Source of the DNA: an uncultured Fusobacteriaceae bacterium
Lineage (GTDB): Bacteria; Fusobacteriota; Fusobacteriia; Fusobacteriales; Fusobacteriaceae
DNA length: 35,105 nt
Assembly: GCA_947072665.1 (NCBI GenBank)
Contig: CAMTIW010000010.1
Coordinates: forward strand, 1-35,105
Reading direction: 5' to 3'
Position numbers and translations under genes: made by a program. This document shows positions 15,011 through 31,230 of this stretch, piece after piece. Under the pieces are notes generated by a model. It was not told the origin of the DNA and did no database searches. It was given only the letters and a program-made list of their open reading frames with translations. Every line of letters starts with the position of its first letter. Position 1 is the stretch's first letter.

Positions 15011-15670
15011 ATGAAAAAAAAAATTTTAATAGTTGAAGATGAACAAGATTATGCTAATATAGTAAAAAAAAGTTTAGAAAATGAAAATTTTGAAGTTAAG
15101 ATTGTAGGTGATGGCTCTTTAGTATTAGAGAAATTTTATCAATTTTCACCTTCACTAGTCCTTCTAGATATAAATCTTCCCAAAAAGAATGGTTGGGAAA
15201 TCTGTAAAGAAATAAGGCAAGTATCTAAAGTTCCTATAATTATAATAACTGCTAGAGATACTGAAAATGATGAAATTTTAGGTCTTGAACTAGGTGCTGA
15301 CGACTATGTGATAAAACCTAATAATATAAAAATAATTTCTTTAAAAATAAAAAAAATTCTTAAAATAGAAAATAATAATTTTTTTTATTTGGATAAACTT
15401 AGTTTTGATTTGAATAGATTTAAAATGATAATTAATGGAGAGGAAATTATTCTTAATAAAAGAGAGTCTTTTTTATTAGAATATTTATTTAAAAATCCAA
15501 ATATAGTTTTATCTAGAGAAACTTTATTAAATGAAGTTTGGGGATTTGAATTTTTAGGGGAAGAAAGAGCAGTGGATACTCTAGTAACTCGTCTTAGAAA
15601 AAAAATGGGAGATTATGGTGATTACATAAAATCAATAAGGGGAGTTGGATATGTTTTTAACCAAAATTAA
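15011..15670 (+). CDS. OmpR/PhoB-family response regulator
   Basis: The 219-aa protein has a receiver domain (1-118) with the acidic pair in VEDEQ, phospho-acceptor D53 in LLDINLPKKNGWE, T80 in IIITARD and K102 in DYVIKPN. A winged-helix DNA-binding domain follows (about 125-217), with LNKRESFLLEYLFKNP, the VDTLVTRLRKKM recognition helix and IRGVGYVF in the wing. The spacing after K102 is slightly short because the linker is compact. The start ATG has CAGGAGA upstream. It overlaps the histidine kinase gene by 20 bases, so the two are co-translated. The likely target is the promoter of the small exported peptide upstream. The signal is unknown. Confidence 0.93.
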   Translation: MKKKILIVEDEQDYANIVKKSLENENFEVKIVGDGSLVLEKFYQFSPSLVLLDINLPKKNGWEICKEIRQVSKVPIIIITARDTENDEILGLELGADDYVIKPNNIKIISLKIKKILKIENNNFFYLDKLSFDLNRFKMIINGEEIILNKRESFLLEYLFKNPNIVLSRETLLNEVWGFEFLGEERAVDTLVTRLRKKMGDYGDYIKSIRGVGYVFNQN

Positions 15671-17000
15671 AATAAATTTTTTCACAAAAATATTTTTTCT
15701 TTTAACTTTTATAATAATGATAACTCTCTCTCTAAATTACATTTTTAATGCAATTTTTTTAGAAAAATACTACATATATAGAAAAAAAGAAGGAATGTTA
15801 AAAATTCTTCAAAACGCTAAAAAAATTTATTTAAATAATTCAGAAGATGATTTTGAAGCATATGTTTATAATATAAATGAATCAAAGGGAATTAATATTA
15901 TTATAAGAAGATCTCACGAAAAAATGAATAGAATGAATTCTAAAAAAATAATGAAAGAAATAATAAAAGAAATCCCTTATAATAAGTTTATAGATAAAAA
16001 TCTATATGGGAATGATGCAAAAATTCTTTATTATGGTGAAAAAATAACAGAAAGCGAAGGAATATTTGTAGGCACATCGCTTTCAGTTATAAGAGCTCAC
16101 GGAGTTGAAAGTAATATATTCAATATTATTACTGCATTTTTTGCATTAATAATTTCTTTATCTATATCTCTTATATCATCTAAGAGAATGACTAGAGATA
16201 TTAATAATCTCAACGAAAAAGCTAGTAAGATTTCTAAATTAGATTTTTCTGAAAATATAAATATAGAAAGAAATGATGAAATAGGAGAGTTAAATGAAAA
16301 TTTAAATAAGATGTCAGAAAGTTTATCGTCATCAATTGATAATCTTAAATCTTTTGTATCAAATGCATCACACGAGTTAAAAACCCCTGTGGCTATAACA
16401 TGTGCTTATGCTACAATACTTCTTGAAAATAAAAATATAAGTGAGATAGAAAAAATTAAATATTACGATATAATATTGAAAACGGGTATAGAAATGGGTG
16501 ATTTAATAGAAAATTTATTAATATTATCAAAATTAAATGGTAATACTATTAAAGTAAAAACTGAGAAAATAAAAATAAAAGATTGTATAAAAAACTCTTT
16601 AGATAAATATGATATATTGGAACTAAAAAAGGATATAACAATAAATTTAAATATTGAAACTGAAGAAATAATTTCTGATTATAAACTGTTAAAAATTGTT
16701 TTAGATAATTTAATACAAAATGCTTTGAAATATTCTATCTATGAAAATAAAATAGAAATTTATGAAAAAAATAACTATCTTTTTATAGAAAACAATTTTG
16801 AAGGAGCTATTAATGAAGAGAAAGATAATTTGTTTCAACCTTTTAAGCGTGGACAAAATGCTGAAGATTTTAAATCTGAAGGAACAGGAATTGGACTTTC
16901 TATTGTAGCTAAAGCTCTCAGTTTATTGAAAACATCCTATTCTATCAAGATTATTGAAAATAAATTTATTTTTAAAATAGAACTATTTCTTAAAAGATAA
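15651..17000 (+). CDS. Membrane sensor histidine kinase
   Basis: The 449-aa kinase has two membrane segments (about 12-35 and 157-178) flanking a small periplasmic sensor domain of roughly 120 residues rich in Lys/Asn/Ile. A HAMP domain (180-235), HisKA with the phospho-acceptor H241 in ASHELKTPVA, and an HATPase domain with the N box DNLIQNALKYS (N357) and G box GTGIGLSIVA (411-420) follow. I chose the ATG at 15651 because AAGGGGAG ends six bases upstream; a TTG at 15645 in frame is too close to that site. It overlaps the response regulator. The sensor domain does not match a family I recognise. The genetic neighbour is a small exported peptide, which may report on or buffer the same stimulus. 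Confidence 0.93.
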   Translation: MFLTKIKINFFTKIFFLLTFIIMITLSLNYIFNAIFLEKYYIYRKKEGMLKILQNAKKIYLNNSEDDFEAYVYNINESKGINIIIRRSHEKMNRMNSKKIMKEIIKEIPYNKFIDKNLYGNDAKILYYGEKITESEGIFVGTSLSVIRAHGVESNIFNIITAFFALIISLSISLISSKRMTRDINNLNEKASKISKLDFSENINIERNDEIGELNENLNKMSESLSSSIDNLKSFVSNASHELKTPVAITCAYATILLENKNISEIEKIKYYDIILKTGIEMGDLIENLLILSKLNGNTIKVKTEKIKIKDCIKNSLDKYDILELKKDITINLNIETEEIISDYKLLKIVLDNLIQNALKYSIYENKIEIYEKNNYLFIENNFEGAINEEKDNLFQPFKRGQNAEDFKSEGTGIGLSIVAKALSLLKTSYSIKIIENKFIFKIELFLKR

Positions 17001-18435: not shown

Positions 18436-18867
18436 ATGAAGAAAGGAATTTTATTTTCAATTTTTATATTAACAGCAGCTATTAGTTTTTCGGAATTAAA
18501 ATCAAATTTAACATCTAACAAAATGGTGATGGTAAACAATCAGATGCAAATGATGCCAGCAGACAACGCTACACCAGGTGATACATTAGTTTATACATTA
18601 GCTCTTAATAATGAAAACACATCAGGAATAACAAATGTAAATCCAGTTATACCTATTCCAAGTTATACAACATTAGTACCTAGTATGGTAGAACCAGCTA
18701 ATTTTATGGTAACAACAGATAATCAAAACTATGTAGCTTATCCTCAAATGGGCGCAAATAATCAACCAGTAGCAGATAATATGTATAAATCAGTTAAATG
18801 GGATATTGGAAATATGAGTGCTAATGAAGTTAAAACAATGAAGATAGGAGTTAAAATAAATAATTAA
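18436..18867 (+). CDS. Small exported DUF11-like surface protein (first gene of the surface cluster)
   Basis: The 143-aa protein has a signal peptide (1-19, ending SFS) and a single immunoglobulin-like DUF11-type domain. The landmarks are TPGDTLVYTLALNNENTSG, a central PSYTTLVPS segment, SVKWDIGNMSANEVKTMKIG and the terminal strand VKINN. The last strand resembles the C-termini of the three large paralogues downstream (YNIKVNQ, YNVKID). It has no cysteine and is rich in Asn, Met and Pro. AAGGAGGAG precedes the ATG. A one-domain subunit in front of multi-domain relatives suggests a capping or minor subunit of the same surface structure, but that is inference. Confidence 0.75.
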   Translation: MKKGILFSIFILTAAISFSELKSNLTSNKMVMVNNQMQMMPADNATPGDTLVYTLALNNENTSGITNVNPVIPIPSYTTLVPSMVEPANFMVTTDNQNYVAYPQMGANNQPVADNMYKSVKWDIGNMSANEVKTMKIGVKINN

Positions 18868-18996
18868 TAAATTGGTTTAATAAAATTTTTTTAATAAAAT
18901 AAAAATAAATAATATCAAGGAGGTCTATGGTCAAATAATTAAATAGGAAAATGTCTGAACTATAAAACAAATAAACCAAAGGGAGATGGGTAAATT
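18868..18996 (+). promoter_or_regulatory. Leader of the major surface-protein gene, with a stand-alone Shine-Dalgarno
   Basis: The 129-base leader contains a perfect AAGGAGG (18917-18923) followed only by a three-codon frame (ATG at 18927, stop at 18936-18938), 74 bases before the real start. TTGGTTTA (18872-18879) can pair with TAAACCAA (18972-18979), closing a loop just upstream of the gene's own GGGAG site. Stand-alone strong ribosome sites in leaders are known to stabilise mRNAs by holding a 30S subunit. That use here is a hypothesis. Confidence 0.45.
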
Positions 18997-21153
18997 ATGA
19001 AAAAAGCTTATGGAATTTTATTAACGTTATTTTTATTAGCTTCAAGTGCTACATTAGCAGCACCAGCACCAGCAAACTCAACAATCGGAACACAGGCAAC
19101 AATTAGCTATACGGATACAGATTCAACAGCAAAAACTACTACATCAAACCTAGTACTTACAACTGTTAATTCAATCTATGCATTAACATTATCACCAACA
19201 GGAAACTATACAGCTTATGCAGGACAAAATATATCTTATCCAATTTCTATTACTAATAATGGTAATACAGCTGATACATATACGTTATCAGAAACAGGAT
19301 CAACATTACAAAACTTAGTATTTACAGTGGATACAAATGGAAATGGAGTAATAGATGCAGGAGAAACAACTACAATAGCCAACCTAGCAAACACACCATC
19401 AGTAGCATCAGGAGCAGTTTTAAAATTAGTTGTAACAGGAACAGTACCAGCAGCAGCAGTAGCAGGAAGTGTACAAACTTATACAACAACTGCAACTTCT
19501 GTAGGAAATACTGCAGTATCAGCTTCAACAAATAACTTATATACAGTAAATACACCAGCAGCAATAGGAATTACAAAAACAGTTGGAGCATCAGCAGTAC
19601 CAGGAGCATTTACTTATATATTTAAAGTAACTAACCCTTCAACAACAGCAGCAAGTAATGTAATCCTTACAGATACATTACCAGTGGGAATTGAACCAGT
19701 AGGTTCTACAGCAGTTTGGAATCCAATTTTATCAGCAACAAATAAAGGAATAACTTATGCAGCAGATGGATTAGAAGTTCCATCCAATGAAGTAGATTTA
19801 CAATATGTTTCTAGAGTAATAACATTTAAAATTTTAAATGTACAAGCAAATATTACAACAGCGAGTGTGGGAGGAGTATTAACTCTTACAGTAGCACCTA
19901 CAGGAACTCCAGTAAGTGGTACAGTTTTCAGTAATACAGGTTCATTTGTATATAATAATGGATTTGTAGTTACATCACCAGCAACAACAGGAACAGCAGT
20001 TTATACAGTACCGGTTGCAAAATCAGTAACTGTAACTAATAATATATCTCTTCAAATACTTCAAGGTGATACCATTGTTTTACCACAAACACTTACAAAT
20101 ACAGGAAATACAGCAGATACATATAACCTAAGTTTAGCAAATACTTCACACATAACAGGAACAGTATTCTACTTAGATACAAATGGAGATGGAATAAGAC
20201 AGGCTTCAGAAACTACAGTTTTATCTAATCCATTAGCATCAGTAGCACCAGGTGCAACTGTTAAATTCTTTGCAGTTGGAGTAGTAGGACTTCCTCCAGT
20301 TGGAGCATTAGTATTTAATATCGTTGCAACTTCTACAACAGATGTAGCAGTAACTGGATCAAGTACAATTACAGGAACAGTAGTAAATGGTTTTGCACTA
20401 GTTTCACTTTCAGCAGAAATCACACTAAGTGCAGTACAAGGTGCTGTAGTAACTTTACCTCAATCAATATTGAATAAAGGTACAACAGCAGAAACTTATA
20501 CTTTAGCAATGAACTATGCAAATATATTAACAGGAGTTACATATTACCTAGATACAAATGGAGACGGAATTAGACAGGCTGGAGAAACAACAGTTCTTTC
20601 AAATCCAACAACTTCAGTAGTAGCAGGAGGAACTCTTAACTTCTTCGCAGTAGGAACAGTACCAGCAGCTCAAGCACCAGCAACTTATGTATTCAGACTT
20701 TATGCAACAGGTGTAACTAATACAGCAGCACAAGACTGGAGTACATTTACTTTAACAGTAACACAACCAGTAATTACTTTAACACTTGTAAAATCTCAAG
20801 CTTTAGATGCAAATGGAGATAATGTATTAGATGCAGCTTACGCTCAAACAGCTCTTACAGCTAATCCAGGAGCAAAAATATTCTACAAAATAGTTGGAAC
20901 AAACACAGGAACAACAGCAGTAAATAACTTTACAATTCAAGATAACGTAGCAGCTTATGCAACATTAACTTTTGGTGATGGAACAGTTTCAGCAACAGGA
21001 AAACCATCATACAGAATAGGATCATCAGGAGCTATGACAGAAGTTCAAACTCATCCAGTAGATGGAGGAACAGGACTTATCCAAGCTACAATACCTACAT
21101 TAACACCAGGTTCTACAATAGAATTCTACTATAATATCAAAGTAAATCAATAA
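18997..21153 (+). CDS. Major Ala/Thr-rich secreted surface protein with DUF11 module and EF-hand-like loops
   Basis: The 718-aa protein has a signal peptide (1-21, ALA-like cleavage) and no cysteine. The N-terminal motif is IGTQATISY (30-38). A domain with the calcium-type loop DTNGNGVIDAGE (112-123) comes next, then a DUF11-like module (190-340, SNVILTDTLPVGIEPVG), then two repeats of 125 residues with loops DTNGDGIRQASE (394-405) and DTNGDGIRQAGE (519-530). The C-terminal domain (603-718) starts with LDANGDNVLDAAY and ends YYNIKVNQ. The loops match the 12-residue EF-hand spacing D-x-N-x-D-G. Codon use is much more uniform (GCA, ACA, GTA) and less AT-rich than the neighbours, as in highly expressed genes. 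A terminator follows directly, so this is probably the abundant subunit. An S-layer-like or fibre-forming role is inferred. Confidence 0.8.
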   Translation: MKKAYGILLTLFLLASSATLAAPAPANSTIGTQATISYTDTDSTAKTTTSNLVLTTVNSIYALTLSPTGNYTAYAGQNISYPISITNNGNTADTYTLSETGSTLQNLVFTVDTNGNGVIDAGETTTIANLANTPSVASGAVLKLVVTGTVPAAAVAGSVQTYTTTATSVGNTAVSASTNNLYTVNTPAAIGITKTVGASAVPGAFTYIFKVTNPSTTAASNVILTDTLPVGIEPVGSTAVWNPILSATNKGITYAADGLEVPSNEVDLQYVSRVITFKILNVQANITTASVGGVLTLTVAPTGTPVSGTVFSNTGSFVYNNGFVVTSPATTGTAVYTVPVAKSVTVTNNISLQILQGDTIVLPQTLTNTGNTADTYNLSLANTSHITGTVFYLDTNGDGIRQASETTVLSNPLASVAPGATVKFFAVGVVGLPPVGALVFNIVATSTTDVAVTGSSTITGTVVNGFALVSLSAEITLSAVQGAVVTLPQSILNKGTTAETYTLAMNYANILTGVTYYLDTNGDGIRQAGETTVLSNPTTSVVAGGTLNFFAVGTVPAAQAPATYVFRLYATGVTNTAAQDWSTFTLTVTQPVITLTLVKSQALDANGDNVLDAAYAQTALTANPGAKIFYKIVGTNTGTTAVNNFTIQDNVAAYATLTFGDGTVSATGKPSYRIGSSGAMTEVQTHPVDGGTGLIQATIPTLTPGSTIEFYYNIKVNQ
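20170..20595 (+). repeat. Near-identical 50-bp segments 375 bp apart within the major surface-protein gene
   Basis: Bases 20170-20220 and 20545-20595 encode the two DTNGDGIRQA calcium loops and are about 85% identical, within a 375-bp (125-codon) duplicated domain. Unequal recombination could delete or amplify a domain in frame. Confidence 0.7.
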
Positions 21154-21175
21154 GATTTTTTAAAGTAAAAAATAG

Positions 21176-21207
21176 AAAGGCTCTTAGAAACATTAAGAGC
21201 CTTTTTT
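21176..21207 (+). terminator. Terminator/attenuator inside the surface-protein cluster
   Basis: AAAGGCTCTTA (21176-21186) pairs with TAAGAGCCTTT (21194-21204), and a T run follows. It stands between the 718-aa gene and the next paralogue, whose ATG is only about 20 bases further. Read-through would give the downstream genes a lower level. Confidence 0.88.
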
Positions 21208-21227
21208 AAAAAAAGGAGTTGGTATAA

Positions 21228-22637
21228 ATGTTAAAGAAAATAAAAAAAAATATTTGTTTTTTAATTTTATTTTTTTTATATACCTTAATATCGTATTCAA
21301 TAACTCCAACTACTTTCCAAATAGGGACTATTGCAATGCTTGTATTGGAAGATAAAACAGAAATTCTATCCAATATTGTAGTAGTAACAATAGTGAATGA
21401 TATTGCTAACATAACAATAGAGAAAAGTTTTAAAGATGAGCCCGTAAAAGAAGAGCAAAAAACACTAGTTTTTAAAATTTTAAATAATTCCAATATAAGA
21501 GGAGAGGACTTATTATTAACTGATGATTTATCAAATAAATATGATATTGTTGGAGATTCTGTGTTATGGACTCCTTTTGGAGAAAATACAACAAAGAAGC
21601 TGACTTTAGTAGAAGATGGTCAAGAAAAAGAAGATATAAATGTGAGTTTAAATTTTAAAAATAATATTTTGAATTTTACAATGAAGGTAGTGGGCGAAAA
21701 TCAATTAATAACTAGTAATGGAGGCTATTTAGAAGTTGTTATTAAACCTAAAGATGATTTATTAGCTAGAACTATACTGAAAAACATAGCCATCTATGAG
21801 TATTTTAATGGAGTAGAAAAAAAAAATAACATAGAAACAAATGTGTTAAATTATGAAGTCCCTATCATTTCAAAAGCTATTTTTACTGGTGAAAGTAAAT
21901 CTTTTGAGAGTTCGGGAAATATAATTTACTTTACTAATATTTTAAAAAATATAGGGAATATAGAAGATACTTATAATATAATTCTTGCTAATAATTTATT
22001 TAAAGATGGAGATACATTCAAGATTGGGCAACTTATTAATAATGTTTTCACTGAGTTTCAAGATACAAATAAAGACGGGATAATAGATACTGGAAAATTA
22101 ACAGTTGGGAAAAGTATAAATATAATATTAGAAGTAACAACAAAGAGCAGTACCTTAACATTGAGAGATCTTTCTATTGAAAAAATTGCAACCAGTGTAG
22201 AAAACCCTCAATATAACGTAGTGGTAAAGGATGTACTGGATCAACTTATCTCCAGTTCGAGTTCAGTAGAATTTTTTAAATACCAGTCTCTAGATAAAAA
22301 TAATGATAATATAATTGAATTTCCCTATACTCAAAATTTAATAGGTGGGAATCCAGAAAATAAAATTTTCTATAAAATAATAGTAAAAAATATAGATGAA
22401 AATCCTATTACAGAGTTATTAATAGAAGATTACATCCCTGAATATACAAAGATGTCTTATGGTGATAATAGTCTCAGTGAAAAAGGAAGGCCAGTTTATA
22501 GATTGAGTAATGATAATATTTTTAAAGAGATAGTTTCCAAGCCATTTATTGGAAGAAATGGAACAATAAAAGTAGAGATACCTATTCTAAATAAAGATGA
22601 GACCGTGGAAATATACTATAATGTAAAAATTGATTAG
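21228..22637 (+). CDS. Secreted paralogue of the major surface protein (469 aa)
   Basis: The signal peptide covers about 1-24. The N-terminus keeps a degenerate version of the family motif (FQIGTIAMLVLED, then SNIVVVTIVND). The central DUF11-like module spans about 67-215 (LVFKILNNSNIRGEDLLLTD, then VLWTPFG), a DxNxDG loop DTNKDGIIDTGK lies near 276-287, and the C-terminal domain starts at about 354 with SLDKNNDNIIEFPY and ends YYNVKID. It aligns module for module with the 604-aa protein and, minus two repeats, with the 718-aa protein. Codon use is ordinary AT-rich, unlike the 718-aa gene. AAGGAG precedes the ATG. It is probably a minor subunit of the same surface assembly. Confidence 0.75.
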   Translation: MLKKIKKNICFLILFFLYTLISYSITPTTFQIGTIAMLVLEDKTEILSNIVVVTIVNDIANITIEKSFKDEPVKEEQKTLVFKILNNSNIRGEDLLLTDDLSNKYDIVGDSVLWTPFGENTTKKLTLVEDGQEKEDINVSLNFKNNILNFTMKVVGENQLITSNGGYLEVVIKPKDDLLARTILKNIAIYEYFNGVEKKNNIETNVLNYEVPIISKAIFTGESKSFESSGNIIYFTNILKNIGNIEDTYNIILANNLFKDGDTFKIGQLINNVFTEFQDTNKDGIIDTGKLTVGKSINIILEVTTKSSTLTLRDLSIEKIATSVENPQYNVVVKDVLDQLISSSSSVEFFKYQSLDKNNDNIIEFPYTQNLIGGNPENKIFYKIIVKNIDENPITELLIEDYIPEYTKMSYGDNSLSEKGRPVYRLSNDNIFKEIVSKPFIGRNGTIKVEIPILNKDETVEIYYNVKID

Positions 22638-22664
22638 AAATCTGTTAGGAGTTGATGAATTAAA

Positions 22665-24479
22665 ATGACAAAAAAAATAAAATATTTAATAATTTATATG
22701 ATGTTCTCAATTTTTAATAGTGTAGTATCTTTTTCAGCTGTTCCTGCAAATACTAATATAGGTATTCAAGCTACAATTAGTTATAAGAAAATAACAGGTG
22801 ATAAGGTTTTTTCTTTTTCTAATATTGTCATTTTAAAAGTAAATGAAGTAGTTAGTTATGAATTACAGGGCTTGATCAATGATATTACAGTCTATGAGAA
22901 TGGAGAATTTATAATTCCTTACTCCATATCAAATAGTGGAAATACGGCAGATTCATACTTGATTTATTTAGAATCTTTAGAATATATCGATGTGAATAAT
23001 TACTTTATTGACTCTAATAATAATGGTATTTTAGAAGCAGATGAAACTACAGAATTAAAAAAAATAGATGATATATATTCAGAAACACCTAAAATAGAGG
23101 CTAATCAAATATTTCATTTTTTTTTAGTAGGGAAATTAAAACCTAATATAGTTGATAATATCAAAATAAATATAAAATTAAATACAAAAAGTAATTTAGA
23201 TAAAAGTCTAATCCAACATGTAGAAACTCAGTTAACAACGAATCTTGCAAATAAAATAACAATAAAAAAATATATAGCAGAGGTTCCAAATACTCAAATT
23301 AAACTATTTGTATTTAAATTTATAAATATATATTCCAATCCTACTTCCAATATTGTTTTAGATGACAATATTGATTCTAGATTTATTTTAGCTGGGGACA
23401 AAGGATATTGGCTTCCATTTGGAAAAGATAAAGAGGTGGAGTTAACTTTTCAAGATGATGGAAAGGAGTTGAATGCTAAAGACTTAGCGTTGAAAATCAC
23501 AAATAATGTAATGACTTTAACAATGGATTCTATTCCTAGAAATGCTCTTGAAAGTAATTCTGGTGGTTATTTATATATCCCTGTTATTGTTAATCCTGGA
23601 GTATCGGAAAATACTGTTTTGAAAAATAAAGCAACATATAATTATTTTGATGGAAAAAATCAGACAAGTAATTATACAACACCAGAGGCTACATACATAG
23701 TACCTTATATAAATGTAATAGATTTACAAGGAGATTCTGTAAATGGAGTAACTACTCTTACTTTTAAGTTTGAGAATTATTTGACTAATTTAGGAAATAG
23801 TAGTGATATATTTAGTCTTTCCTTAGTAAATAATAGTTTTCCCAATGGAACATTATTTAATATTGAACTTGAAAGAGGGAATGGTGAGATTGAGAATAAG
23901 GGAGATATACTAGTAGGGAATTTTATTTCTTTAGGCGAAGTTAAGCAAGGTGAAAAAATAAAGATAAAAGTTAATGTAACAATACAAGATCCTGAAAATT
24001 TATATAATAATTATGCAATTAATAAGCTGATATTAAGTAAAAAGAATCCAACTGCCATAACTTCAGTTACAGATTCTTTTATAGGATATAAAATAGATGA
24101 TAATTTCACTTTTGAAAAATTTCAAGGATTAGATATAAATAATGATGGGATATTAGATATAGATTATACTAAAAATGACTTGGAAGTAAAAACTAATTAT
24201 GTAATATATTATAAATTAATTTTTACTAACAAAGATAAAATTACTATAGAGAATATTATATTGTCAGATAAAGTACCAGATAACACTACTATAAATAATG
24301 GTGATGGTTCTTTATCACCAAGAGGTGTACCTTGTTATGCAGTAATATCTAATACGGGGATAAATAATGGTTATAATAGAGCAGAAAATTTAGGAGATGA
24401 TACAATAGGAAGTTTAAAACTTGATTTGAAAGAAGGAGAGAAAATAGAGTTGTATTTTAGTGTAAATATAGATGAATAA
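22665..24479 (+). CDS. Secreted paralogue of the major surface protein (604 aa)
   Basis: The signal peptide covers about 1-24 (ending SFS). The family N-terminal motif is well kept (NIGIQATISYKK). A domain with the loop DSNNNGILEADE follows (about 110-125), then the DUF11-like module (195-345, NIVLDDNIDSRFILAGD and YWLPFGKD), another repeat-like domain, and the C-terminal domain from about 488, opening GLDINNDGILDIDY and ending YFSVNIDE. One cysteine lies in the C-terminal domain. The start ATG is 13 bases from AGGAG, rather far, and lies 27 bases after the preceding stop, so coupling is likely. It is more complete than the 469-aa paralogue because it retains the N-terminal calcium-loop domain found in the 718-aa protein. 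Confidence 0.75.
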   Translation: MTKKIKYLIIYMMFSIFNSVVSFSAVPANTNIGIQATISYKKITGDKVFSFSNIVILKVNEVVSYELQGLINDITVYENGEFIIPYSISNSGNTADSYLIYLESLEYIDVNNYFIDSNNNGILEADETTELKKIDDIYSETPKIEANQIFHFFLVGKLKPNIVDNIKINIKLNTKSNLDKSLIQHVETQLTTNLANKITIKKYIAEVPNTQIKLFVFKFINIYSNPTSNIVLDDNIDSRFILAGDKGYWLPFGKDKEVELTFQDDGKELNAKDLALKITNNVMTLTMDSIPRNALESNSGGYLYIPVIVNPGVSENTVLKNKATYNYFDGKNQTSNYTTPEATYIVPYINVIDLQGDSVNGVTTLTFKFENYLTNLGNSSDIFSLSLVNNSFPNGTLFNIELERGNGEIENKGDILVGNFISLGEVKQGEKIKIKVNVTIQDPENLYNNYAINKLILSKKNPTAITSVTDSFIGYKIDDNFTFEKFQGLDINNDGILDIDYTKNDLEVKTNYVIYYKLIFTNKDKITIENIILSDKVPDNTTINNGDGSLSPRGVPCYAVISNTGINNGYNRAENLGDDTIGSLKLDLKEGEKIELYFSVNIDE

Positions 24480-24515
24480 TAAATATATTCTTTATATTTA
24501 TTAGGGGGATTTAGT

Positions 24516-27500
24516 ATGAAATGGAAAATTATATTTATGTTTATATTTATATATTCTTTGATATTTACAGGAACTGCTAATATTTCCATAACAAATATTG
24601 GGACGGTAAGTATATCAGGTTCAATTCATAGCTCAAATAAAGTTTCAACTGACTTGGAACTAATTAGTATAGCTACAACCATAGAAAGTGATAGAAAAAA
24701 TATTCAAGTAGGAGAATTAGTTAATTTCAAAATAAAAATAACTAATAATTATAAATCAGAGTTAAATGAAATTAGTACATATATTATATTACCACGAGGT
24801 TTTAATTATATTAAAAATATAATTAAAGTAGCTGGATTCACCATTACAGAAGTAGAAAAACATCCTAATAATATTATTCTGAAAATAGAAGGGAAATTAA
24901 ATAGTGGTGATGAGCTAGAATTTATAGCAGTATGCCAAGCAGCAATGGGAATAAAAAAAGGGATCAACATAATAAATACTAAATCTTTAGGTATAGTAAT
25001 AGGAGGGAATATAGGTTCTAATACTGCCAGTACCAATATAAATGTAATAGAAGATAAATTATTGAATACTGGTGTCATATTTGGAAGAGTTTTCATAGAT
25101 GAAAATAAAAATGGAGTTTTAGATGAAGGAGAACAAGGTATTCCAGGAGCAAAAATATACTTAGAAAATGGTCATTTTGTCTATACCGATATAGAGGGAA
25201 AATATAGTATGTTTGGAGAGCGAGCTCTAACACACGTACTAAAATTAGATTCATTTTCAATTCCAAAAAGGGGGCGATTAGCAAAACTAGACAGTAGATA
25301 TTCAGAAGATGGAAGCCAAGTTTTTGCAGATGTAAAAAAAAGTGAATTTTATAAAGTTAACTTTGCTTTTCATGATGTATCCATGAGCTTTTTAGAGGAG
25401 ATAAAAAAGAGAAGTGATATGAAAAATCTTCCCACAGAATTATCACAGGTTATAGAAAAAAATGAATTTGTATTTAAAACTTTTGATTCAAAAAGTGGAA
25501 AAATAGATAGTAGTGGATATTTTTCAGGTCAAAAAGATACTCTTCAAAAAGCTATGGAAGAGATTCAGAAAGCTAAAGAACAAAAAAAAATAGAGGAATA
25601 CTTAGCAAAAGAGAAAAAAAATGAAAAAACACCAGAGGAAATGACTAAAGAATTGGAACATAAATTAGATAACTCAAATAATACATTAGATATCATTAAT
25701 TTAAAGGATAAGGAGTTGGTTTCTAAGATAATTTCAATACAGATAAAATCAAAATTAGGGGATAGCATGGAGGTGTATTTAAATGATAATTTAATCCCTT
25801 ATAAACTATTAGGTACAAGTGGCGAGTCTATAAAAAATGATTTGAGTTTTTATGAATATGTTGGAATTGAGCTAAAACAAGGTAATAATAAAATAAGAGC
25901 AGTATCAACTTTTGAAGGGATGAAAAAGGTAAAAGAGATAGAAGTAATTTTTGCTTCTGGAGTAGAAACCATTGAACTTAATTATAATAAAAAAGATTTA
26001 GTAGCAGATATTCAAAAAGCAGTAGATTTTACTCTTATATTAAAAGATAAAAATGGTAATGTAATATCCAAACCATATTTCGTTTCCATTGTAAACGATA
26101 AAGGAAGTTGGCTATCTCAAGATATAGCACCCAATGACCCAGGGCTACAATTTATAAGTAGTGGCTTAGAAACTAAATTAAAATTTTTACCATTTCCAGA
26201 AACAGGTGAAACTGAATTTAAAATTTTTGTAGATGGGAAGGAAAAAAATTATAAAATAGATTTTAAAGCACCTAAAAGACCTCTTTTAATAAATGCAATA
26301 ATTGAAGGTAGAGTAAACTCTAAAAGCAATGGTATTAGTTTAGAGAGCGGAGATGATTTTTTTGAGGATTCTTTCTCTCGTAGAACTGCAATTTTTTCAA
26401 CTGGAAGTTTAAATGAAGAATATAATTTAACTCTTTCTTATGACAATACAAAAACAGATGATGAAGTTTTTTTTCAGAAATTAGTAGCAGATGATTTTTA
26501 TTTAGTCTATGGTGATAATTCTATAAGAGGTTATGAAGCTCAATCTACTTCAAAACTTTATTTAATGCTAGAAAATGATAATAGTAAATATTTGTACGGT
26601 GACTATAGTTTAAGTTGGTCAGATGATTCAGTTGATATAGGAAGTTATTCTAGAATTTTAAATGGTTACAATTATAAATATAAAAGTGATAAAATAGAAG
26701 CAGAAGCATTTTTATCCAATACCAATTCGGTTCAAGTTATAGATGAATTTCCTGGGAGAGGAGTTTCAGGGCCGTATCAATTATCTAGGGGTAATATTTC
26801 AGAAAATTCAGAGCAAGTAAAAATAATAATGTATGATAAAAATAATCCATCAATTGAGCTTATACAAGTTGATGCACCACCTTATACCATAGATTATGAT
26901 ACTGGAGTTATTTATTTTAATACAATTATTCCAGAATTTGATAAAAAAGGAAATATATTGAAAATTAGAGTAACATATGAAATAGATTCTAAAAGTGGAA
27001 AGAAATATAACGTATATGGAGGAAACCTTAAATATCATTTTAATGAAATGGTAAGTGTGCAAGGAGTTTGGGTAAAAGATGAAAATCCAGAAACAGATTA
27101 TGAAAATAGAAGTTATAATTTCACCGTGGATATGGATACCAAAGGTAAGATAATATTGGAAACAGGTCAAACAGTTCATATGGGTGAAACAGGAAAAGCA
27201 AATATGATAAAGTATATAAATAAAGGACCAAAATTTAAATCTAAAATGATTTATTATGATGGTGACTCTAATTTCTTTAATCCAGCTTCATTTGTGAGAC
27301 CAGATGCGAAATTGTTTTCTGTAAATAATACATATGAATTAACAGATGTAGATATTTTACAAACACAGGGCTTTTATTATAAGGATAAAAAAGAAGATAA
27401 AATTTCAAAACAACTTTATCAAGGATATAAAAGAATTATAAATTCAACAACAACTTTAGATATAGGAGGTAAATATACTAAAAATGAAACAGATGGAGAT

Positions 27501-28634
27501 ATAAAACCTTTGGTGACTTTGGGAAGTAAATTAACATGGGGTCCTAGTAATATCGAAGGTCTTATAAACTACTTAGAATTTGAACAAGATATAGATGATT
27601 CTTCTAAGAAAAGATTAGGGGTAGGTTCTGAATATATTGTAAATAAATATTTAAAACTTTATGGGAAATATGATTTTATTTCTACATTACCTGATACCAC
27701 TGTAATAGATAGATTTAATGTTTCTTATAAAAAATTGTATGGATTTGAATTAGGGACATTGGATTATTTAAGATTTTATACAGAATATAGAGAACATGAT
27801 AATGATACTTTTGATAAGGAAGTAGCTTTTGGATTTAAAAATAATGTAGATATCAATAAGAATTTAAATTTTTCTTCTGTATTTGAAAGGGTTATAGGGG
27901 TTAACAAAGATAAGAGTACTAATAAAAACGATAAAACAAATTTTTTATTTTCCTATGGCTATAAAGATGAAAAAACAAATACAAGTGTAGGGGATTTAAA
28001 TTTTACAATTGAAAATGAAATTACCAGTATCTTATCAAGATTAGCTTATGGAAGAAAAATAAAGGATGACCTAACTTTTGCAGTTAAAAATAGGTATTAT
28101 ATACAAGATATGAAGAAAAATAAAAAGAAAGATAGATTTTTATTAGGAATAGCATATAGAGATAGTAAAGATATTTATAATAGCTTAATAAAATATGAAA
28201 TTAATTATGATAATGGTATTGATAATAAAGGATATAAACATTTAGCAAATATTATAAGTACAACTCATAATATCCAACTTAAAAATAATTTAGTGACTAC
28301 ATTTTCACTAGGTGGGAAATATGTTCAAGATGAAAACATTTATGCCGTAGAGAAATATTTTGCATATATGTTAGGATTTAATACAAGGTATTATGCCACA
28401 GAAAAAATAGATTTGGGTCTGAATACAGCAGTTTATATTGATGATAAATCTATGGAAAAATATGGTGTAGGGATAGAGTTAGGCTATACTTTAGATAATA
28501 ATTTTTGGATATCAGTAGGCTATAATTTTTTAGGTTTTAGAGATAAAGATTTCTTTAATGATGATGATTATTCCAAAGGTATTTATTTAAGATTTAGGCT
28601 TAAATTTGATGAAGGTATTTTAAATAGGTTCTAA
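24516..28634 (+). CDS. Large outer-membrane protein: DUF11 + SdrD-B-like module + coiled coil + Ig-like domains + beta barrel
   Basis: The 1372-aa protein has a signal peptide (1-20), a DUF11 domain (45-180, VGELVNFKIKITNN and STYIILPRGFNYIK) and an SdrD-B/carboxypeptidase-regulatory-like module (190-285). In that module GRVFIDENKNGVLDEGEQG is a calcium-type loop, D195 to E206. A charged coiled coil (340-395) and two Ig-like domains (about 400-480 and 485-585) come next. From about 600 to the end the sequence alternates polar and aromatic residues in short strands (YGDNSIRGYE, LYGDYSLSW, GGKYTKNE) and finishes with LRFRLKFDEGILNRF, a terminal Phe as in outer-membrane barrels. It is the last gene of the cluster. 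I infer an anchor or secretion platform for the three paralogous proteins. A stand-alone adhesin is the alternative. Confidence 0.78.
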   Translation: MKWKIIFMFIFIYSLIFTGTANISITNIGTVSISGSIHSSNKVSTDLELISIATTIESDRKNIQVGELVNFKIKITNNYKSELNEISTYIILPRGFNYIKNIIKVAGFTITEVEKHPNNIILKIEGKLNSGDELEFIAVCQAAMGIKKGINIINTKSLGIVIGGNIGSNTASTNINVIEDKLLNTGVIFGRVFIDENKNGVLDEGEQGIPGAKIYLENGHFVYTDIEGKYSMFGERALTHVLKLDSFSIPKRGRLAKLDSRYSEDGSQVFADVKKSEFYKVNFAFHDVSMSFLEEIKKRSDMKNLPTELSQVIEKNEFVFKTFDSKSGKIDSSGYFSGQKDTLQKAMEEIQKAKEQKKIEEYLAKEKKNEKTPEEMTKELEHKLDNSNNTLDIINLKDKELVSKIISIQIKSKLGDSMEVYLNDNLIPYKLLGTSGESIKNDLSFYEYVGIELKQGNNKIRAVSTFEGMKKVKEIEVIFASGVETIELNYNKKDLVADIQKAVDFTLILKDKNGNVISKPYFVSIVNDKGSWLSQDIAPNDPGLQFISSGLETKLKFLPFPETGETEFKIFVDGKEKNYKIDFKAPKRPLLINAIIEGRVNSKSNGISLESGDDFFEDSFSRRTAIFSTGSLNEEYNLTLSYDNTKTDDEVFFQKLVADDFYLVYGDNSIRGYEAQSTSKLYLMLENDNSKYLYGDYSLSWSDDSVDIGSYSRILNGYNYKYKSDKIEAEAFLSNTNSVQVIDEFPGRGVSGPYQLSRGNISENSEQVKIIMYDKNNPSIELIQVDAPPYTIDYDTGVIYFNTIIPEFDKKGNILKIRVTYEIDSKSGKKYNVYGGNLKYHFNEMVSVQGVWVKDENPETDYENRSYNFTVDMDTKGKIILETGQTVHMGETGKANMIKYINKGPKFKSKMIYYDGDSNFFNPASFVRPDAKLFSVNNTYELTDVDILQTQGFYYKDKKEDKISKQLYQGYKRIINSTTTLDIGGKYTKNETDGDIKPLVTLGSKLTWGPSNIEGLINYLEFEQDIDDSSKKRLGVGSEYIVNKYLKLYGKYDFISTLPDTTVIDRFNVSYKKLYGFELGTLDYLRFYTEYREHDNDTFDKEVAFGFKNNVDINKNLNFSSVFERVIGVNKDKSTNKNDKTNFLFSYGYKDEKTNTSVGDLNFTIENEITSILSRLAYGRKIKDDLTFAVKNRYYIQDMKKNKKKDRFLLGIAYRDSKDIYNSLIKYEINYDNGIDNKGYKHLANIISTTHNIQLKNNLVTTFSLGGKYVQDENIYAVEKYFAYMLGFNTRYYATEKIDLGLNTAVYIDDKSMEKYGVGIELGYTLDNNFWISVGYNFLGFRDKDFFNDDDYSKGIYLRFRLKFDEGILNRF

Positions 28635-28668
28635 AAAAACTTTACAGAGAAATCTGTAAAGTTTTTTT
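28633..28668 (+). terminator. Terminator of the surface-protein cluster
   Basis: AAACTTTACAGA (28637-28648) pairs with TCTGTAAAGTTT (28653-28664) across a GAAA loop, extended by A/T pairs and followed by a T run. It overlaps the stop codon of the large outer-membrane gene. Confidence 0.9.
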
Positions 28669-28770: not shown

Positions 28771-31230
28771 ATGAATATAAAAGAAAAAATGTCTTTAGCA
28801 GCAATACAAATAATAAGAGAAGAAATAGAACTTGCCTCAGGAAATGAAGTTTTTTTTAGAGGAATACTAGAAGAAACAGGAATAATAGAAAAGGTAGAAG
28901 TTTTAGCAAGAGGAAATAAAAGAGCAACACCAGCAATATTAAAAAGAATGAAAAAAGAAGAAGTAATTATACATAATCATCCTTCTGGATACCTTTATCC
29001 ATCAGATGCAGACATAGAGGTAGCTTCTTATTATGCCAATAGTTTTAACGGTGGTTTTTATATAATTAATAATAATGTAACAGATATTTATGTGGTGGTA
29101 GAAGTATACAAGGATAAAAATATCCCAATTGAAATAACACCTTACTTTGAAAAAAAAGGTTTGATAGCACAGTTTTTTCCAGAGTTTGAATATAGAAAAG
29201 AACAAATGGAAATGGCAAGTGTTATAGAAAAAGGATTTAATGAAGAGAAAAAAGTAGTAGTAGAGGCAGGAACAGGAACAGGAAAAACATTGGCATATTT
29301 AATTCCAGGGATTGAATGGGCGGTAAAAAATAAAAAAAGAATAGTTTTTTCTACGAATACTATAAATCTTCAAGAACAACTTTTAAATAAAGATATTCCT
29401 CTAGCTAAAAAAGTTTTAGGTTATGACTTTAAATATGTGTTGGTAAAGGGAAGAGGCAATTATATGTGCAATAGGAAATATCACAACTTTGTTATGGGAG
29501 AAAAAGTTGATATGAATGATTTTTCCATTGTTCAAAAAAATCAATATGCAGAGATAATAAAGTGGGGGAGATTCACTAAAGATGGGGATAAATCTGAATT
29601 AACTTTTGAAGTTGAATCACAAATATGGGAAATTTTTCAAAGTGAGACAGATACATGTATAGGAAATAAATGTCAATATAGGGATGAGTGTTTTTTCTTT
29701 AAAGCTAGAGATGAAAAAAAGAAAGCTGATGTATTAATAACTAATCATCATCTTTATTTTACTGATTTAGCAATTAGAAAAGAGATTGGATTTTCTACTG
29801 ATTATGCCATTTTACCAGAATACTCAAGTATAGTTTTTGATGAAGCACATAATATAGAGAAAGTAGCAAGAGATTATTTTTCGTGTGAAATATCTAAATT
29901 GAGTTTTATAAAATTGTTGAATAAAATAGAAAATAGTGATAAAAAAAGAAAGAATATAGGTGTATTGGGAATTGTAGATAAAATATGTAGAGATCAAAAA
30001 TCTTTTGAAGGAATGAAATTAATTGAGAATTTAAGAGTTAGGCAAGCACAGTTTTCAGTAGCAATAAGAACTTATTTTAATCAAATGATAGAATTATTTA
30101 CAAGTGAAAGACAAGAGATAGCAAGTATTAGGTTAAAAAAAGATGAATTAGCTCAAATAAACTATATAGACAGCTTAAAATTTTATAGTTCTGAATTATT
30201 GGTAGAACATGGATTATATCAAAGAACTGGTAGGTCACTTATAAAAATTATTAGGGAATTAGATGATGATGATGGAACTATAAGTGAACTTATAAAATAT
30301 TTGGAGAGACTAGATGACTATGTAAGTAATTTAAAATTTATAGATAGTATGGAAGATGATGGGTATATTTATTGGGTGGAAGTAAATAGAAGAAAAGGCT
30401 ATGCTAAAAGGGTTGCAACACCATTAAAAATAGATTCAGAATTACAAAAAAATCTTTTTATTAATATGAAGACAATAATATTTACATCTGCTACAATAGC
30501 TATTGGGAGTAATTTCAAATATTTTAAGGATTCTATTGGATTAAAAGATGAAGTTATAGAAGATGTAATAAGCTCACCATTTGATTACGATAAAAAAATG
30601 AAAGTGTATATTCCTGATGATTTTTGTGACCCAAGTAGTAAAGATTTTTCTGAAGAGGTAGCTAATTTTTTAAAGAGTTCATTAGTTGCATCTAGAGGTA
30701 GAACTTTTGTGTTGTTTACATCATATAAAATGTTGAATTATGTCTATTATAGTGTTAGAGATGAACTAGAAAAGAATGGAATAGAATTATTTATACATGG
30801 AACAGCTCCTAGAACACAGCTTGTGGAGCTTTATAAAAAGTCAGAAAAACCTGTTCTTTTTGGAACTGATTCTTTTTGGGAAGGTGTGGATATAAAAGGT
30901 GAAAAATTAAGTTCTGTAATAATTATAAAATTACCATTTAAAGTTCCAAATGATCCGATAACAGAAGCAATAATAGAGAGTATAGAACTAGAAGGAAAAA
31001 ACTCATTTATGGAGTTTCAAATTCCAGAGGCAGTAATTAAATTTAAACAAGGAATTGGACGTTTAATTAGAAGTAAAAGTGATTCGGGAAATGTTATTAT
31101 TTTAGATAATAGAGTTATAAATAAAAAATATGGTCAATTCTTTAAAAGTGCAGTTCCAAGTAAAAATATTTTAGTGGCTAGTAAAAGTAAAATTATTAAA
31201 GATATTTTTCAGGAGATGGGGGAAAAATAG
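28771..31230 (+). CDS. dinG: DinG-family Fe-S helicase with an N-terminal JAB/JAMM domain
   Basis: The 819-aa protein joins two parts. Residues 1-115 form a JAB/MPN domain with a complete JAMM zinc motif, HNHPSGYLYPSDAD (H68, H70, S78, D81), close to that of RadC. Residues about 135-815 form a superfamily 2 helicase of the DinG/XPD type: Walker A AGTGTGKT (166-173), Fe-S cysteines C233, C296, C301 and C307, DEAH (357-360), ATNHH-like ITNHHLYF, and the C-terminal motifs FGTDSFWEGVD and KQGIGRLIRS. DinG unwinds 5'-3' DNA and resolves R-loops and DNA-RNA hybrids. The JAMM domain suggests an added hydrolase activity, possibly proteolysis or nuclease-like, as is unresolved for RadC. E. coli DinG has no such domain. 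It heads the run ending with the lipase-like gene; the HD-protein ATG directly follows its stop. Confidence 0.92.
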   Translation: MNIKEKMSLAAIQIIREEIELASGNEVFFRGILEETGIIEKVEVLARGNKRATPAILKRMKKEEVIIHNHPSGYLYPSDADIEVASYYANSFNGGFYIINNNVTDIYVVVEVYKDKNIPIEITPYFEKKGLIAQFFPEFEYRKEQMEMASVIEKGFNEEKKVVVEAGTGTGKTLAYLIPGIEWAVKNKKRIVFSTNTINLQEQLLNKDIPLAKKVLGYDFKYVLVKGRGNYMCNRKYHNFVMGEKVDMNDFSIVQKNQYAEIIKWGRFTKDGDKSELTFEVESQIWEIFQSETDTCIGNKCQYRDECFFFKARDEKKKADVLITNHHLYFTDLAIRKEIGFSTDYAILPEYSSIVFDEAHNIEKVARDYFSCEISKLSFIKLLNKIENSDKKRKNIGVLGIVDKICRDQKSFEGMKLIENLRVRQAQFSVAIRTYFNQMIELFTSERQEIASIRLKKDELAQINYIDSLKFYSSELLVEHGLYQRTGRSLIKIIRELDDDDGTISELIKYLERLDDYVSNLKFIDSMEDDGYIYWVEVNRRKGYAKRVATPLKIDSELQKNLFINMKTIIFTSATIAIGSNFKYFKDSIGLKDEVIEDVISSPFDYDKKMKVYIPDDFCDPSSKDFSEEVANFLKSSLVASRGRTFVLFTSYKMLNYVYYSVRDELEKNGIELFIHGTAPRTQLVELYKKSEKPVLFGTDSFWEGVDIKGEKLSSVIIIKLPFKVPNDPITEAIIESIELEGKNSFMEFQIPEAVIKFKQGIGRLIRSKSDSGNVIILDNRVINKKYGQFFKSAVPSKNILVASKSKIIKDIFQEMGEK

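Follow-up and report, generated by a model that had tools for sequence, protein, structure and literature searches.

Five genes on the plus strand at positions 18436-28634 of the window (the whole 35,105-nucleotide stretch of DNA from an uncultured Fusobacteriaceae bacterium that was analyzed) form a cassette of predicted secreted proteins, and we see about an even chance that this cassette is an export and assembly platform in which a giant, peptidoglycan-anchored outer-membrane barrel serves C-terminally tagged cargo, with a logic like that of the Type 9 secretion system (T9SS) but without homology to it. The genes encode a one-domain protein (SMALL), three multi-domain proteins (MIDDLE-1, MIDDLE-2, and MIDDLE-3), and a barrel protein (BARREL); they are separated by gaps of 27-129 bases, signal peptides could be read from the sequence of all five products, and re-checking of the ORF coordinates confirmed the five ORFs of the original prediction. 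An intrinsic terminator-like hairpin with 16 pairs and a T-rich tail lies directly 3' of BARREL (28633-28668, plus strand), but it is a supporting sign only, as the region has 5 terminator-like sites where shuffled sequence would be expected to give 3.1. Promoter-like sites showed no excess over the shuffled level, and an Rfam search of the region gave no match. Database names for the parts of the cassette were DUF11, NEW3, carboxypeptidase-like, or hypothetical only, and the gene set appears to be new as a set, named so far only by domain annotations.

BARREL (1372 aa; 24516-28634) is a predicted outer-membrane protein, analyzed as an ORF and by Pfam, profile searches, and AlphaFold2. An AlphaFold2 model of residues 173-1372, made with an alignment of forty-five relatives, had a pLDDT of 83.6 and a pTM of 0.80 and bore out the expected C-terminal barrel, which is predicted to be very large (26286-28607). 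DSSP assigned 39 strands at least 8 residues long to residues 591-1364 of the model, and the prediction, with a count from DSSP alone, is that about 36-39 membrane-type strands make up the barrel. The final strand, GIYLRFRLKF, is beta-signal-like, and a small domain (SGPY...SE...YTIDYDTGVIYF) is inserted in the predicted barrel after approximately seven strands. The barrel-coding DNA also contains a 40-base tandem repeat of 2.1 copies (27377-27458). Foldseek comparison of the model with the PDB returned the outer-membrane barrels LptD, Mtr, FimD, SlpA of the S-layer deinoxanthin-binding complex (SDBC), and SprA, and no solved barrel of like size and shape was found there (best TM to query 0.18). 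Searches of PDB sequences gave mainly Ig-domain matches (beta-galactosidases, S-layer, invasin) and no barrels.

The arm in front of the barrel is arranged as N-motif, DUF11, SdrD_B, helical spacer, and Ig-like domains. Its N-terminal part (24579-24986) consists of a degenerate N-motif (SITNIGTVSI...SSNKV), which is strong in relatives, and a DUF11 domain (residues 55-157, E 1.8e-4). The SdrD_B-like domain (25062-25250; PF17210, E 2.2e-5) is conserved better than any other part of the arm, with 62% identity to the nearest relative, and was matched in 31 of 40 relatives. It is followed by the helical spacer (25383-25670), which appears as helices in the AlphaFold2 model, and by an Invasin/Big_1-like Ig region adjoining the barrel (25722-26270; Pfam, profile search, AlphaFold2). 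The domain string originally proposed for this protein stood for the Ig region, which AlphaFold2 supported; the Pfam matches to DUF11, SdrD_B, and Big_1-like domains were all weak. The Pfam scan found no OmpA peptidoglycan-binding domain (PF00691) in BARREL of the window itself; such a domain is present in the arms of 13 of the 40 relatives, mostly between SdrD_B and the barrel, and in many gammaproteobacterial relatives it stands at the interval of the helical spacer. Because the arms of relatives carry this domain, the arm of BARREL is most likely periplasmic and probably tied to peptidoglycan, and we consider the OmpA domains, as read from these sequences, the best evidence on BARREL topology. 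Separate OmpA-family genes were also seen directly 3' of the barrel in some cassettes (L223:13144-14226, L086:14314-15039, L074:845-1291).

The three MIDDLE proteins were confirmed as paralogs, with the 604-aa protein matching the 469-aa protein at E 8.7e-43 and the 718-aa protein at E 1.8e-32. By ORF, homology, and profile analysis, MIDDLE-1 (718 aa; 18997-21153) has a signal peptide, an N-terminal hairpin, DUF11-type repeats, and a C-terminal domain (C-domain), and MIDDLE-2 (469 aa; 21228-22637) has a degenerate N-motif, a W-x-PFG module, an Ig module, and a C-domain. MIDDLE-3 (604 aa; 22665-24479) was modeled by AlphaFold2 (pLDDT 90.2, pTM 0.66) as an N-hairpin followed by four Ig-like domains, the last of which is the C-domain, and Foldseek with this model returned Ig-domain strings such as PrgB, BcpA, and integrins. 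The C-domain, which is Ig-like and of the DUF11 type, was found at the end of all three proteins, as first proposed, by a profile whose training set includes two of the three window C-domains, with i-E 4.3e-45 in MIDDLE-1 (residues 594-718; 20776-21150), 4.6e-32 in MIDDLE-2 (residues 347-469; 22266-22634), and 4.2e-41 in MIDDLE-3 (residues 480-604; 24102-24476). It occupies the final 125 residues or so, and its last strand is the literal end of the protein.

The other shared features held in part. The N-terminal IGTQATISY motif is clear in MIDDLE-1 and MIDDLE-3, where it comes immediately after the signal peptide (hairpin and first strands of MIDDLE-1: residues 24-97, 19066-19287, profile E 2.1e-29), but it is degenerate in MIDDLE-2 (E 6.6e-4); a hairpin of this type also opens BARREL proteins in other phyla. 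The W-x-PFG segment reads WTPFG in MIDDLE-2 and WLPFG in MIDDLE-3, but WNPIL in MIDDLE-1. DUF11-like modules gave matches that were mostly under Pfam's gathering score, and against TIGR01451 MIDDLE-1 scored 27.5 bits, above the curated cut-off of 24, but MIDDLE-2 and MIDDLE-3 were below this cut-off or had no match. Across loci, the length of MIDDLE ranges from about 300 to 3376 aa and is set by module number, with both end modules kept. MIDDLE-1, MIDDLE-3, and the start of the C-domain contain EF-hand-like DxNxDG loops (weak Pfam EF-hand matches; 19300-24476), which suggest calcium binding. The G+C content of MIDDLE-1 (18997-21153) is approximately 0.35, compared with approximately 0.26 in the rest of the window, and follows its Thr/Ala/Val-rich repeats.

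SMALL (143 aa; 18436-18867), which is found upstream of BARREL in four phyla, proved to be the one-domain relative that had been suspected: hhalign aligned it to the C-domain with a probability of 97.2% (E 3.4e-11), and it scored 25.5 bits against TIGR01451, above the curated cut-off of 24. Pfam and NCBIfam scans of SMALL gave only DUF11/TIGR01451 and no match to a PapD-type chaperone.

The expected co-occurrence of MIDDLE and BARREL was found in 96 Fusobacteriales genomes, where each was positive in 8 genomes and 7 of these were common to both (hypergeometric 5e-9, which overstates the strength because the genomes are related), and the two genes are also adjacent in phyla beyond Fusobacteriota. 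Neither BARREL nor MIDDLE is present in two other genomes from the same genus as the window. A scan of genome contigs with the single BARREL sequence gave zero relatives, so detection needed a profile, with which the same BARREL was recovered from Verrucomicrobiota, Acidobacteriota, and Gammaproteobacteria. Among the genomes sampled, barrel matches below E 1e-30 were seen in 38 of 274 from Gammaproteobacteria, 12 of 149 from Acidobacteriota, and 4 of 195 from Verrucomicrobiota; these counts take in more distant barrels too. BARREL is also plasmid-borne in Acinetobacter haemolyticus, whose plasmid keeps the SMALL-MIDDLE-BARREL order, and in Pacificitalea manganoxidans DY25, where two genes upstream of BARREL take the positions of SMALL and MIDDLE. 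Coraliomargarita sp. SDUM461004 is a further environmental strain that has the cassette. The same order recurs in Fusobacteriota, Verrucomicrobiota, Acidobacteriota, and Pseudomonadota. A system confined to Fusobacteriota was therefore rejected, since no fewer than three further phyla, and plasmids of proteobacteria, carry this same cassette.

Gene order was analyzed at 44 barrels with at least 3.5 kb of upstream DNA, four of which are of a two-gene sister type. SMALL was upstream in 28, a MIDDLE-type gene in 39, and at least one of them in 40, and these partners were on the same strand and usually adjacent. The training set of the profiles for this analysis comprised 12-14 proteins taken from the window and from eleven further loci. 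Loci L145-L174 therefore serve as an independent test, and upstream partners were found at every one of them except L153, L168, and L169. The count for SMALL took in an N-truncated MIDDLE piece at L063 and passed over the SMALL of L062, which lies 13.4 kb upstream, beyond the 3376-aa MIDDLE; the total of 28 is unchanged. No barrel turned up in one further assembly (G023), where the end of a contig (L071:6587-11718) carries SMALL and MIDDLE together with a truncated MIDDLE-3-like gene.

In other phyla, additional genes beside BARREL encode proteins with unlike bodies (P-domain, DNRLRE-type repeat, GEVED, and SdrD_B with a region that by eye resembles a beta-helix) whose literal end matches the C-domain profile. 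These matches include i-E values of 1e-4 to 1e-8, and some of them could represent generic DUF11 similarity, the C-domain being of the broad DUF11-type fold. In a check of 32 genomes, 12 had been picked because they carry BARREL or SMALL-MIDDLE, and 11 of these cassette genomes had a MIDDLE-type C-domain, against none of the 20 other genomes checked from the order; the sole cassette genome without it is G010, whose contig begins inside BARREL. MIDDLE genes that are unlinked to a barrel (G001 contig 35 and G012 contig 8) retain the C-domain. Because the unlike additional cargo conserves the C-domain and not the N-hairpin, we take the C-domain as a probable tag.

The SprA barrel of T9SS has 36 strands; BARREL is predicted to have 36-39 or so, but its structural overlap with SprA is low (TM 0.13). 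In T9SS, the SprA translocon recognizes its substrates by their C-terminal domain (PMC10994853). T9SS is like the cassette in having a giant outer-membrane barrel and unlike cargo with a common beta-sandwich C-terminal domain, and its cargo genes may be unlinked; the cassette differs in its low Foldseek score to SprA and in being found outside Bacteroidota. Membership in T9SS was rejected, as there was no SprA sequence match and no T9SS C-terminal-domain family: profiles A1 and A3 matched no SprA in all PDB sequences up to E 5 and 10, Pfam gave no match to the SprA family in BARREL or its relatives, and the three MIDDLE proteins matched none of the T9SS C-terminal-domain families in NCBIfam, their C-domain being instead of the DUF11 type. 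Chaperone-usher systems (FimD/PapC) resemble the cassette in the barrel insertion after the sixth or seventh strand, the periplasmic N-terminal arm, and the co-encoded Ig-like subunits. But the barrel of an usher has 24 strands against 36-39 or so, the subunits of the cassette are multi-domain strings, and membership was rejected because BARREL and its relatives had no usher match in Pfam and the cassette contains no PapD-type chaperone. Membership in the autotransporters (Type 5) was rejected too, with no barrel-domain match in Pfam and about 36-39 predicted strands against about 12.

SlpA, or the SDBC, of Deinococcus has a very large barrel and an N-terminal part that reaches peptidoglycan. 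It is like BARREL in both respects and was a Foldseek match, but there is no sequence match, and SlpA is not known to have DUF11, SdrD_B, or C-domain-tagged partners. Surface grappling-hook filaments built of DUF11 domains in a row are described for GhpA of Aureispira and GhlA of Litorilinea; GhlA is one protein of 6596 aa, and Litorilinea is without canonical outer-membrane markers (PMC13319060). They differ from the cassette in that the part of this source drawn on here reports no giant-barrel partner (PMC13319060), and the cassette is without such a DUF11 string of several thousand residues, SMALL and MIDDLE being 143-718 aa and the longest relative 3376 aa. A paper on T11SS mentions DUF11 merely in passing, and a description of the cassette was not found in open-licence literature on DUF11 or on Fusobacterium/Cetobacterium surface proteins, which is weak evidence of absence.

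We infer the following localization, route, and roles. All five proteins would cross the inner membrane by Sec, and BARREL would sit in the outer membrane, its N-terminal arm reaching into the periplasm; in those relatives that have an OmpA domain, at the least, this arm would hold peptidoglycan. The MIDDLE proteins, with a conserved module at either end, are predicted to be Ig/DUF11 domain strings, some containing DxNxDG motifs that resemble Ca2+ loops. The C-domain would be an address tag that is recognized by BARREL or SMALL before the protein is passed through the barrel, and MIDDLE would then be displayed or assembled as surface fibers, the length of which is set by module number. SMALL, a lone copy of the tag, may be a plug, cap, or base subunit. 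By analogy, export and fiber assembly through BARREL appear most likely because unlike cargo with a common C-domain beside a giant barrel is the logic of T9SS, and because a periplasmic arm resembling the subunits recalls the ushers. A stronger statement, which we consider possible but less likely than not, is that at least four phyla share a previously undescribed outer-membrane secretion system, unrelated to Type 9, whose peptidoglycan-anchored barrel (about 36-39 strands) would be the exporter of proteins bearing a C-terminal DUF11-type tag.

The original prediction was supported in part. Its "dedicated anchor or exporter" fits the co-occurrence of MIDDLE and BARREL and the predicted barrel, and between its two halves we rank export and assembly through BARREL first and a pure anchor or surface-layer role next. 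BARREL would then be a structural, peptidoglycan-tied protein like SlpA, on which the Ig-strings dock homotypically via N-hairpin and DUF11 to form a surface layer or fiber, with export by another route. We consider this possible but rather unlikely: the OmpA domains in relatives' arms, the helical spacer, the N-hairpin common to MIDDLE and BARREL, and the SlpA/SDBC barrel among the Foldseek matches all agree with it, but the additional cargo conserves the C-domain rather than the N-hairpin, which favors a tag, and SlpA is not known to have such tagged partners.

Two-gene sister cassettes consist of a giant DUF11-repeat protein followed by a related barrel of approximately 1170-1330 aa (L065:3-7639, L074:1335-9294, L075:8791-16943, L076:6389-13812, L225:1-10757). 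They were found in Fusobacteriaceae and also on a plasmid of Sinorhizobium meliloti, and in G013 the sister cassette adjoins the main one. They are like the main cassette in the related barrel and the DUF11 partner immediately upstream, but they have no SMALL and no capped multi-gene set, and the barrel match begins only near the Ig region. At acidobacterial loci L177 (1897-13890) and L178 (3332-19600), single fusion proteins of approximately 4000-5400 aa have 12-28 DUF11-type repeats on the N-terminal side of a related barrel. Such strings hardly fit the periplasm, and these fusions speak for a barrel that threads its own N-terminal arm outside, in the manner of an autotransporter, with MIDDLE proteins binding the displayed stub. 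This is improbable in our view, as in many orthologs an OmpA domain that binds peptidoglycan separates the arm from the barrel, Pfam matched no autotransporter domain, and the fused genes are distant relatives, not orthologs. Least probable of all is an envelope spacer, all of whose parts are periplasmic and stitch the outer membrane to peptidoglycan with the barrel as a pore, which the OmpA domains and helical spacer would suit but which the variable number of modules and paralogs, the MIDDLE strings of up to 3376 aa (the longest being hard to fit in the periplasm), and a patchy, sometimes plasmid-borne distribution unlike that of a housekeeping tether all speak against.

On its 3' side, the cassette is followed by a DinG-type helicase (28771-31230) that shows a weak RadC/JAB-like match close to the N-terminus. 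Linkage to the neighboring DinG/7TM-HD block was rejected, as relatives conserve this block without having the cassette next to it, and the cassette is therefore an accessory insertion. The window also encodes a two-component regulator and a kinase shortly before the cassette region (15011-17000), and the cassette on the Pacificitalea plasmid has a response regulator upstream of it (L224:1607-2227); these genes may regulate the cassettes. Four Cetobacterium-type cassettes have a lipoprotein-like gene of approximately 250 aa before SMALL (L064:9777-10547, L065:7758-8504, L066:12007-12774, L067:8381-9112), which is absent from the window.

BARREL is among the largest single-chain outer-membrane barrels predicted. 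If export through it is true, the cassette would represent a secretion and assembly machine of a new class that occurs in several phyla and on plasmids, and the problem that the Type 9 system solves would have a second and unrelated solution. Even if BARREL is merely an anchor, it would give a function-linked partner to proteins with DUF11, a common and largely unexplained domain family.
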